From the NCBI GenBank assembly GCA_016932965.1, contig JAFGBW010000215.1, positions 1 through 6,317 of the forward strand: a stretch of 6,317 bases of DNA, given 5' to 3'. Below, in pieces: positions 3,507 through 6,175 of this stretch. A program made the translations under genes and the position numbers. The stretch is from Candidatus Auribacterota bacterium. GTDB lineage: Bacteria; Auribacterota; JAFGBW01. A model generated the notes under the pieces. That model was not told where the DNA came from. It ran no database searches and saw only the letters and a list, made by a program, of their open reading frames with translations. How positions within the stretch are numbered: the stretch's first letter is position 1; each line of letters opens with the position of its first letter.

Positions 3507-3513
3507 CCTCCTT
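3507..3513 (-). promoter_or_regulatory. Strong Shine-Dalgarno deciding the GTG start of rpsC
   Basis: AAGGAGG lies 4 nt before GTG at 3502 and overlaps the TAA stop of rplV. The near-perfect SD, together with the conserved S3 N-terminus [12 protein letters not shown] immediately downstream, fixes the non-ATG start and suggests coupling of rplV and rpsC translation. Confidence 0.8.
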
Positions 3514-4075
3514 ATTGATTCTTCTCTTTGCCTTTTTTAGGCTTTTTAACGGTTTTTTTATGTTCTTCTTTATCGATTTTTTTCTTAAACTCTTTTGACT
3601 TTTTTACGCCTGCCTCGAGATGAGCCCCTGACTTACCTGTCTTTTTTTTCAACGATTTTCTTCCTTTCCCCTCTTCCTGCTCCTGTTGTCCCTCAATCAA
3701 AGGTTTTTCCCCTGCCGGTTCTTCCTGAGTTTTAACAGGCCGCGGACGATCCTCGAGCATCAAATCAATATGACAGAATCGTTTCAAAATAGGAGTTGCT
3801 CTCCCCTGTGCCCTGGGAATAAAACGCTTCATCACAGGACCTTCATTCACAATCACTTTTGAAATGAAGAGCGTTTCAGTATCCATGCCATCCTTGTTAC
3901 CCGCATTGGCTGCTGCAGAACGCAGTAATGTTTCCATCGCCCTGGCCCCCTTCTTAGGTAAAAAGGAAAGAATCCTCACTGCTTCATCCAGTTTCTTGCC
4001 GCGAACGAGGTCCGCCACTAACCGGACTTTCTTTGGAGACATCTTAAAATATCTTAATTTTGCCGTTGCATGCAT
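3512..4075 (-). CDS. rplV: 50S ribosomal protein L22 with long basic C-terminal extension
   Basis: L22 binds 23S rRNA and lines the nascent-peptide exit tunnel. Residues 1-108 are a typical L22 core: YFKMSPKKVRLVADLVRGK near the N-terminus, then the signature region around residues 79-102 (GPVMKRFIPRAQGRATPILKR, HID), which includes the tunnel hairpin. The usual length is about 110 residues, but this protein has 187. The extra 75 or so residues are first Glu/Gln/Pro-rich and then strongly Lys-rich (KKKTGKSG, KKPKKGKEKNQ), and are likely disordered and RNA-binding. The ATG is preceded by GGTG about 5 nt away, a weaker SD than most neighbours have. The gene follows the inserted POTRA gene by 29 nt, and its stop overlaps the rpsC SD. 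Confidence 0.97.
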   Translation of the reverse strand: MHATAKLRYFKMSPKKVRLVADLVRGKKLDEAVRILSFLPKKGARAMETLLRSAAANAGNKDGMDTETLFISKVIVNEGPVMKRFIPRAQGRATPILKRFCHIDLMLEDRPRPVKTQEEPAGEKPLIEGQQEQEEGKGRKSLKKKTGKSGAHLEAGVKKSKEFKKKIDKEEHKKTVKKPKKGKEKNQ

Positions 4076-4104
4076 GCTTTCACCGATACTCTTTCAAAAA
4101 AAAC

Positions 4105-5808
4105 TTATTCACCGTACTCCCTGACTTCATCTCCCACTTTCACATCATTGGCGTTCCCTTCCTCAATATCAGAAGCGCAAATATTTCGTCTAACTTCAAT
4201 GACTCTGGTGATGGCAACCCGTTTCTCGCCTCTTGAAATTTCCATCCTCATATCCTTATAAACGCCCTTGTTGGCGCCTATATTCAACACGATAAAATTC
4301 AATGTCGGATTCACCACCAGCACCTGGCCCGTCAATTTTTCCTTCTCGATATAAGCTGTTTCTTTTTTCCGCGGAATTTGTTCGCCTTTGATCGTATCAC
4401 GCTCTGATTTTTCCTGCGGTACAGCGATCGGAGCCAATTCTATTCTGTCCAGTTCTCTGGCAATCTCACTCCGGGTTTCAGAAAGAACCTTGTTTAAATG
4501 ATCTCTGACTTTTTCCAGCTCAGAGAGCTTGCTGCCGACCAAATCAGACAATACCTGAACCCTTTTAACAGCTGAATCCCTTTCTGCCGCTATCTGCCTC
4601 TCCATCTTTCTGTTTCTGGAAACGTTCTGCTGCAGCTTTTCAAGTTCTGCCCTGTTGATGTCCAACCTGTTTTGAAGCGAACGCACCTCTTCTTTTAGAG
4701 AACCGATTTGTCTCTTCAAGTCCCTGTTTTCTATTTTTGCCTTGGCCAATAAACCGGACAGCAACGATTCAACCTCTTCTTTCTCCCGAAGAAGAGACCT
4801 CAACGTTTCCGCGTCTGTTGGCAAGGACGTTTTTTCCTGCTTCATTGAGGAAACGGGATTGTCTGTTGAAGACACCGGATCACTGCCTATCGGCTGATCT
4901 GCCGATATCATTGAACCTTCTCTCTCAGGTGGCAGTGCGGATTCCTCTTCTTGCTGTTCTTGTAGGTCCGTTTTTCCATCCAAAACAGCAGGGGGCATGA
5001 GAGAGGATTCATGTGGCCATTTCTGTATGGGTGAAGATTCCTCTTGGGACGATTCCGATCCAGGAAGTATCTGGCTTCCTATCACCGGAGGAGTCTCAAT
5101 AGAAGTGGTTTCTTGGAATCTTTCCCTATCCTCTTTTTCTAACTCGCCGCCCGTTGTAGCATCTCCGTAAAATAAAGGCTGTACTTCTGGACTTTCTTCA
5201 ATAATGAAAGTCAAATCCACGGAATCCCCGTCTTCTGAAAATTTTTTCTTTATTTGTTTGACACGACAGTCTCCCAGACCTTCAAATTGGTAATGGTTCT
5301 CAATGGCCAAGGAATCTTCCTGCAGAACTTTTTCCTGGAGATAATTTCTTCTAAAAAGGACCCCGGGTTTTGTCTGCACAAGTTTTTTCAACCTGTTTTC
5401 CTTGACTTTAGTATTGCCTATAAACTGGACTTCTCTCACTTTGACCCTGTTACCTTCATCGATGTGATAATTCAATTCTATTTCTTCTGCTGAGGTCCTG
5501 TTTCTGGAAACATCCACCTCCACAAAGAAAAACCCTTCTGATTTATACTTTTCTTTTATTTTCTGAAGAGACTCTTCCACCTGGTTTTGACTGATGGCCT
5601 CTCCTTTTATCAATCCAAGCACCTGATTCAGATTTTTTTCTGAAAAATACCTGTTTCCGGTGAATCTCCAGCATCCTAAAACATATCCTTCTCCACTATC
5701 TCCGCTTGCGAAAAAACTATACCCCATAAAAAGGGTGATAGTGGTAGCTATTTTATTATACATGGCAAGCTTTTTTTTATGTAAAGCACGCATTTCTTTC
5801 ATGTCCAA
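4105..5808 (-). CDS. POTRA-domain, coiled-coil envelope protein inserted in the ribosomal operon
   Basis: This is a 567-residue protein of no recognised named family. Residues 10-35 are a Lys-rich n-region followed by a hydrophobic stretch (ATTITLFMGYSFFASG), a likely signal peptide or membrane anchor. Residues about 45-119 and 120-207 each look like a POTRA domain: a FTGN or FIGNT strand start, a helix pair, GFFFVEVDV in the first, and ends reading IDEG and IIEES. Residues about 208-333 are a Ser/Pro/Glu-rich disordered linker, about 334-456 a heptad-like coiled coil, and about 493-567 a beta-rich domain (LNIGANKGVYKDMRMEISR, then VKVGDEV) resembling FlgT C-terminal-type domains. The Omp85 barrel is missing. 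The inferred role is a periplasmic or envelope scaffold or assembly factor, with unknown substrate. TTG is chosen by SD; ATGs at residues 3, 6 and 16 are alternatives. The frame is intact, with 29 nt to rplV. Domain calls are by eye. Confidence 0.8.
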   Translation of the reverse strand: MDMKEMRALHKKKLAMYNKIATTITLFMGYSFFASGDSGEGYVLGCWRFTGNRYFSEKNLNQVLGLIKGEAISQNQVEESLQKIKEKYKSEGFFFVEVDVSRNRTSAEEIELNYHIDEGNRVKVREVQFIGNTKVKENRLKKLVQTKPGVLFRRNYLQEKVLQEDSLAIENHYQFEGLGDCRVKQIKKKFSEDGDSVDLTFIIEESPEVQPLFYGDATTGGELEKEDRERFQETTSIETPPVIGSQILPGSESSQEESSPIQKWPHESSLMPPAVLDGKTDLQEQQEEESALPPEREGSMISADQPIGSDPVSSTDNPVSSMKQEKTSLPTDAETLRSLLREKEEVESLLSGLLAKAKIENRDLKRQIGSLKEEVRSLQNRLDINRAELEKLQQNVSRNRKMERQIAAERDSAVKRVQVLSDLVGSKLSELEKVRDHLNKVLSETRSEIARELDRIELAPIAVPQEKSERDTIKGEQIPRKKETAYIEKEKLTGQVLVVNPTLNFIVLNIGANKGVYKDMRMEISRGEKRVAITRVIEVRRNICASDIEEGNANDVKVGDEVREYGE

Positions 5809-5816
5809 AACAGGTT

Positions 5817-5820
5817 ACCT
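5817..5820 (-). promoter_or_regulatory. Shine-Dalgarno of the inserted gene, supporting a TTG start
   Basis: AGGT lies 8 nt upstream of TTG at 5808 (9 nt if counted from AGG). The next in-frame ATG (5802) would be about 15 nt from this AGG, which is too far, so the SD favours the rare TTG start. The SD is half of a perfect odd palindrome, AGGT-A-ACCT (5812-5820). The stem is too short to be a strong hairpin, but the arrangement could mildly reduce ribosome access. Confidence 0.5.
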
Positions 5821-5847
5821 ACAAATATTTAATTATCCTTCTTTCTA

Positions 5848-5862
5848 TTCCTAACTCAGGAA
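5848..5862. repeat. Small perfect inverted repeat in the rpsS–inserted gene spacer
   Basis: On the transcribed strand TTCCT and AGGAA are separated by the 5-nt loop GAGTT. The stem is only 5 bp and is not followed by a T-run, so it is not a terminator. It lies about 40 nt upstream of the TTG start of the inserted gene, in the largest non-coding gap of the window (82 nt, 5809-5890). It could be a minor mRNA hairpin that separates translation of the new gene from S19, or it could be chance. Confidence 0.3.
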
Positions 5863-5890
5863 GCTTGACTATTAAAAAAGAGCCGGGCAA

Positions 5891-6175
5891 TTAAGCAGAT
5901 TTTTTAACCAATCCTTTATCCGAACTGTGCTTTTTAAAAGTACGCGTATGGGAAAATTCACCGAGTTTATGTCCGACCATATTCTCGGAAACAAACACAT
6001 TGATGAATTTACGCCCATTATATATGGAAAAATTATGGCCGACAAAATCCGGCGTGATGGTGGACCTTCTTGACCAGGTCTTGATCAGACTTCTTTCCTT
6101 GATCTGATTCAGCTTCTCTACCTTTTCCATCAAATGCGGATCAATAAAAGGCCCTTTTTTCAATGATCTTGCCAT
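5891..6175 (-). CDS. rpsS: 30S ribosomal protein S19
   Basis: S19 is a small-subunit head protein that contacts 16S rRNA with S13 near the A-site tRNA. The 94-residue product has the usual family length and begins [10 protein letters not shown]. The S19 signature is complete at residues 65-83 ([20 protein letters not shown]). The ATG start is preceded by AGGAG with a 7-nt spacer, and the gene lies 19 nt after the rplB stop. rplV would normally follow immediately, but here an 82-nt spacer and an unrelated gene of about 1.7 kb follow. Nothing in S19 itself looks altered, and its stop codon is at the normal place, so the insertion did not disrupt it. Confidence 0.98.

Follow-up and report, generated by a model that had tools for sequence, protein, structure and literature searches.

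In one class of Candidatus Auribacterota, rpsS and rplV flank a settled gene for a POTRA-containing envelope-type protein

Introduction

The locus studied here raises the question of why a large gene for an envelope-type protein should be kept between rpsS and rplV, inside the S10 operon of ribosomal protein genes. The original prediction, made from the letters of the DNA, took this pair to be highly conserved, and the comparison with other genomes agrees with it. The two genes are adjacent in 37/37 other genomes of this little-known phylum that have both on one contig (gaps of 14–179 nt in a first measurement, and of 2–182 nt in a second one made on the loci) and in 14/14 bacteria outside the phylum (gaps of 32–163 nt). 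With the pair unbroken in all 51 comparison genomes, the retention of a large gene at this site in two families hints strongly at natural selection for co-production.

Non-ribosomal genes are known in ribosomal operons, such as secY, rpoA and priB (PMC10931766). The inserted gene resembles them in being non-ribosomal and co-oriented within a ribosomal protein operon, and secY too serves protein export. However, those genes are widespread and belong mostly to information processing, whereas the inserted gene encodes an exported envelope protein, at the rpsS–rplV site and in one class. A search of the literature on insertions between rpsS and rplV, and on the class itself, returned nothing relevant, and an exported POTRA protein at this place was not found in the searchable literature. 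The locus combines known domains, a new architecture and a surprising place.

The inserted gene and its junctions

The window, that is, the whole stretch of DNA analysed, is a contig of 6317 bases (G000:C296) with both ends inside the S10/spc ribosomal protein operon. Read 5' to 3' on the minus strand, it carries rpsS, the inserted gene, rplV, rpsC, rplP, rpmC, rpsQ, rplN, rplX, rplE, rpsN and rpsH, the ribosomal names having been assigned from the sequences. The genes at the junctions are the following.

5891..6175, minus strand: rpsS (S19), intact, upstream neighbour
4105..5808, minus strand: inserted gene, encoding POTRA–POTRA–coiled coil–beta-barrel; start TTG at 5808 or ATG at 5802, stop at 4105
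3512..4075, minus strand: rplV (L22), intact, downstream neighbour, with a GGTGA Shine-Dalgarno-like motif before its ATG

The open reading frame coordinates confirm the description from which the study started, of a 567-codon gene on the same strand between intact rpsS and rplV, 29 nt from the latter (4076–4104). The gene was indeed present in the span then given for it, 4105–5890, but this span includes a leader of 82 nt, which is the gap between rpsS and the inserted gene in the window copy, where the two genes do not overlap. The length is 565–567 codons, the larger value being counted from the TTG as in the list of open reading frames. The choice between this TTG and the in-frame ATG is uncertain, with an AGGT 8 nt upstream favouring the former.

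The full-length gene is single-copy in its own genome and its base composition is native, with a GC3 of 0.44 against 0.41–0.51 in the ribosomal genes. Moreover, it has the features of a member of the S10 operon: same strand, short gaps and a matching place in relatives. High expression is not visible, because its codon adaptation (0.73) is not distinctly above that of ordinary genes (0.67–0.74).

Conservation and age of the insertion

Besides the window genome, the sample of the class consisted of two genomes, both Candidatus Auribacterota MAGs and belonging to two genera of another family than the window. The rpsS–rplV interval of these close relatives, whose inspection had been proposed, has an ortholog directly after rpsS in 2/2 cases. 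G001 (JAGLFH010000028.1, Candidatus Auribacterota RS_1_24) shows the complete order, rpsJ-rplD-rplW-rplB-rpsS-X-rplV-rpsC, where X is the ortholog; in G002 (JAFGJP010000132.1, Zod_Metabat.284) X follows rpsS and the contig stops within X. In both, the rpsS stop and the ortholog start overlap by 4 nt as ATGA.

The window protein is 29% identical to the orthologs, which are 54% identical to each other, while S19 of the window has 70–73% identity to that of the two relatives. Between the G001 and G002 orthologs, the differences at codon positions 1, 2 and 3 are 0.32, 0.22 and 0.56, a pattern which shows that selection acts on the protein level in this family.

Within one class of Candidatus Auribacterota, the inserted gene belongs stably to the rpsS–rplV string and has been kept at one site in two families and three genera. 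Orthologs at the same site, together with the otherwise unbroken pair, indicate that the insertion was gained once and then kept, and the gain is probably to be placed in the ancestor of this class. The suggestion that the gene is settled rather than mobile has held well, since two further genera, which belong to another family, have orthologs there; a recent mobile insertion was rejected in view of the native composition and the old orthologs. A chimeric contig, produced by assembly or binning, might be feared for a contig of just 6317 bases with both ends within the operon. Nevertheless, separately named MAG records repeat the junctions, both of them in G001 and the rpsS junction in G002, so that this explanation was rejected and is extremely improbable.

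Domain architecture

The protein can be divided into the following segments, with residues counted from the ATG in the first of them.

5692..5802, minus strand: signal-like N-terminal segment, ~residues 1–37 from ATG; basic n-region, weak hydrophobic stretch and FFASG, from hydropathy
5188..5691, minus strand: two tandem POTRA domains, ~residues 38–205; Pfam PF07244 at 3.3e-24 and BamA PDB profile matches
4825..5187, minus strand: disordered P/S/E/Q-rich linker, ~residues 206–326; pLDDT <50 at 205–327 and composition
4444..4824, minus strand: coiled coil, a continuous 127-residue helix, residues 327–453; AlphaFold2 pLDDT ~80–93 over most
4108..4341, minus strand: C-terminal beta-barrel, residues 488–565; nine-member profile, E 1.3e-28

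Export is supported largely by the relatives, in which the signal-like segment is clearer, and by the domain type; in the window protein, the 15-residue hydropathy maximum lies outside the N-terminus. The POTRAs are clearly BamA-type, in sequence as in fold. The E-values for PF07244 are 3.3e-24 in the window protein and 6.8e-9 and 1.4e-19 in the two orthologs, and the significant matches of a three-protein profile against solved structures are BamA only, plus one BamA fusion or chimera each. In the AlphaFold2 model of an ortholog, residues 46–198 align with POTRA2-3 of BamA over ~150 residues with Z ~10–12. The models are moderate overall (mean pLDDT 57, from an alignment of 3 sequences), the POTRAs being usable in the ortholog model only and the barrel in the window model only.

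The linker is mostly missing from the ortholog in the alignment. The helix that follows spans 127 residues in the window protein and 153 in the ortholog, with a clear hydrophobic periodicity of 3.5 residues, as in heptads. The C-terminal barrel is compact and occupies the last 75–78 residues, with pLDDT ~75–89 in the window model. In fold it matches the barrel at the N-terminus of F1-ATPase subunits (Z ~10, 1.6–2.4 A for most rows); an F1/V1-ATPase-like function was rejected, and the match is read as a shared small-barrel fold.

The protein is thus an exported non-barrel chimera, in the sense that it has no outer-membrane barrel of its own, its export being supported as described above. No family in Pfam or NCBIfam describes such a soluble POTRA–coiled coil–barrel architecture. 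In the original prediction the envelope-type character and the POTRA-like domains were seen correctly, as was the settled state of the gene, but the larger part of the protein, formed by the coiled coil and the C-terminal beta-barrel, was missed.

Relation to BamA and origin

Like BamA and other Omp85 proteins (PF07244, TIGR03303), the inserted protein has two POTRAs in tandem, which score significantly in Pfam, and a fold match to the POTRA pairs of BamA. In contrast to BamA, the 16-stranded C-terminal outer-membrane barrel is missing, and the POTRAs are followed by the linker, the long helix and a 75-residue barrel. The NCBIfam model of BamA, TIGR03303, reaches 98 bits where its cut-off is 297, with only positions 76–239 of 741 matched. 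The window genome also has a normal BamA of 791 residues, adjoining an OmpH/Skp-like gene, lpxD and lpxC. Because this separate, complete BamA is present, the inserted protein is not the BamA of the genome but an additional protein. A truncated BamA copy was also rejected, as there is no barrel left and the full BamA lies elsewhere in the genome.

The C-terminal part leads to another family, hitherto undescribed, which occurs in most families of Auribacterota. Its members (L065, L066, L067, L069, L071, L085 and L086) have one membrane anchor at the N-terminus, then a coiled coil, and end in a barrel of 75 residues. The copies that were read have no POTRAs, measure ~265–370 aa and lie outside the S10 operon; several adjoin GHL10 glycoside hydrolase and DUF4416 genes. 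The inserted protein shares with them the coiled coil and a homologous C-terminal barrel, and differs by its POTRAs. Single-sequence searches with the C-terminal part, before any profile, gave family matches at E 9e-10 to 6e-5; in the value of 1.3e-28 for the nine-member barrel profile, the window row is itself inside the profile. The window genome has its own paralog at G000:C74:454-1248 (L084; profile E 2.6e-21), and this second copy led us to reject the idea of a C-terminal domain present only once in the genome. From the copies without POTRAs across the phylum and the normal BamA of the window genome, we infer that the inserted gene arose when POTRAs of the Omp85 type were fused to the membrane-anchored coiled-coil-barrel protein of the phylum.

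Co-expression with the S10 operon

Promoter-like sites in the window show no excess (8, against 9.9 expected from shuffled sequence), and terminator-like sites are somewhat commoner than expected (10 against 5.9, sd 2.8). A scan of the window found no terminator-like sites at the junctions of the inserted gene with rpsS and with rplV. Since the ortholog start overlaps the rpsS stop as ATGA in both relatives, co-translation of the ortholog with rpsS is likely in G001 and G002. The same overlap, the lack of promoter excess and the junctions free of terminators support indirectly that the inserted gene is co-transcribed with rpsS and rplV.

Possible functions

As the best explanation we tentatively prefer a lineage-specific periplasmic tether or chaperone associated with BamA and co-produced with the S10 operon, although the chances that we give it stay short of even; the partners, the role and the growth coupling are what we infer here, while the place of the gene, its conservation and native composition, the domains and the heptad helix are established, and export and co-transcription have support. 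Such a protein would be an accessory of BAM in the periplasm, its POTRAs pairing either with those of BamA or with outer-membrane proteins that are still unfolded. With a length of ~19–23 nm if fully helical (0.15 nm per residue), the coiled coil would, together with the barrel, either keep the POTRA site at a distance from some partner at the cell wall or inner membrane, or anchor it to that partner. Translation in tandem with S19 would hold the amount of the protein proportional to ribosome production. The bolder version, in which the S10 operon holds a dedicated outer-membrane assembly factor whose translation is coupled to that of S19, making the capacity for envelope assembly follow ribosome synthesis directly, seems to us quite unlikely. 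If true, it would mean a hard-wired link of surface growth to ribosome growth in a diderm lineage. Should the inserted protein serve BAM, it would offer a simple and testable case of outer-membrane biogenesis coupled to ribosome synthesis.

POTRA-like domains are also present in proteins that have no part in assembling outer-membrane proteins. This fact counts against the preferred explanation, and so do the weak N-terminal hydrophobic stretch, the ordinary codon adaptation and the 82-nt gap. A passive passenger and a different envelope machine are serious rivals. In the former case, a gene for a protein with a generic envelope role would have entered a highly expressed operon a single time, in the ancestor of the class, and its place there would have no regulatory meaning. 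This somewhat unlikely account agrees with the gene being carried by one class only, with the unremarkable codon usage and with protein identity falling to 29% while S19 stays at 70–73%; rplC, too, has left the operon, both here and in other families, a sign that changes are tolerated in it. Nevertheless, a place without meaning fits poorly with the same site being kept across two families and three genera, and with the 4-nt overlap with rpsS in two genera.

The different machine would be an exported scaffold of the envelope with no relation to BAM, such as an element of an appendage, a secretin or flagellar-type ring element, or a cell-wall organiser, in which a FlgT_C/TsaP-like barrel sets the function and the POTRAs bind other proteins. 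We hold this to be unlikely. The barrel profile weakly matches TsaP of type IV pili (3jc8, E 3.6e-4), and in another genome a member of the family gives a FlgT_C match below threshold (1.2e-4), but the FlgT_C matches fall under the gathering score and span 26 residues. The weak profile similarity to the C-terminal domain of FlgT and to TsaP concerns the barrel core only: a Pfam search gave no FlgT_C match in the window protein (a relative reaches 22.9 bits against a gathering score of 27), and neither the N and M domains of FlgT nor the LysM of TsaP were found in the inserted protein and its orthologs. Two POTRA-less relatives (L071 and L086) lie near apparent flagellin and other flagellar genes, as judged from their sequences, whereas no secretin or flagellar genes adjoin the inserted gene in the window. 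Moreover, the BamA type of the POTRAs speaks against the scaffold.

Other features of the operon

The gene rplC (L3) is absent between rpsJ and rplD in G001 and G002 (loci L062, 11255–11352, and L063, 2865–3033), and it is encoded elsewhere in the window genome (C64:9958-10200, L079) and in G001 (C36:136251-136499, L080). It is also missing from this place in genome G006 (L082), and in several other families of the phylum it is found on another contig than rpsS. Finally, L22 of the window is extended at its C-terminus by roughly 70 residues rich in Lys and Glu (3512–3720), and a long L22 is also found in G001 and G006.
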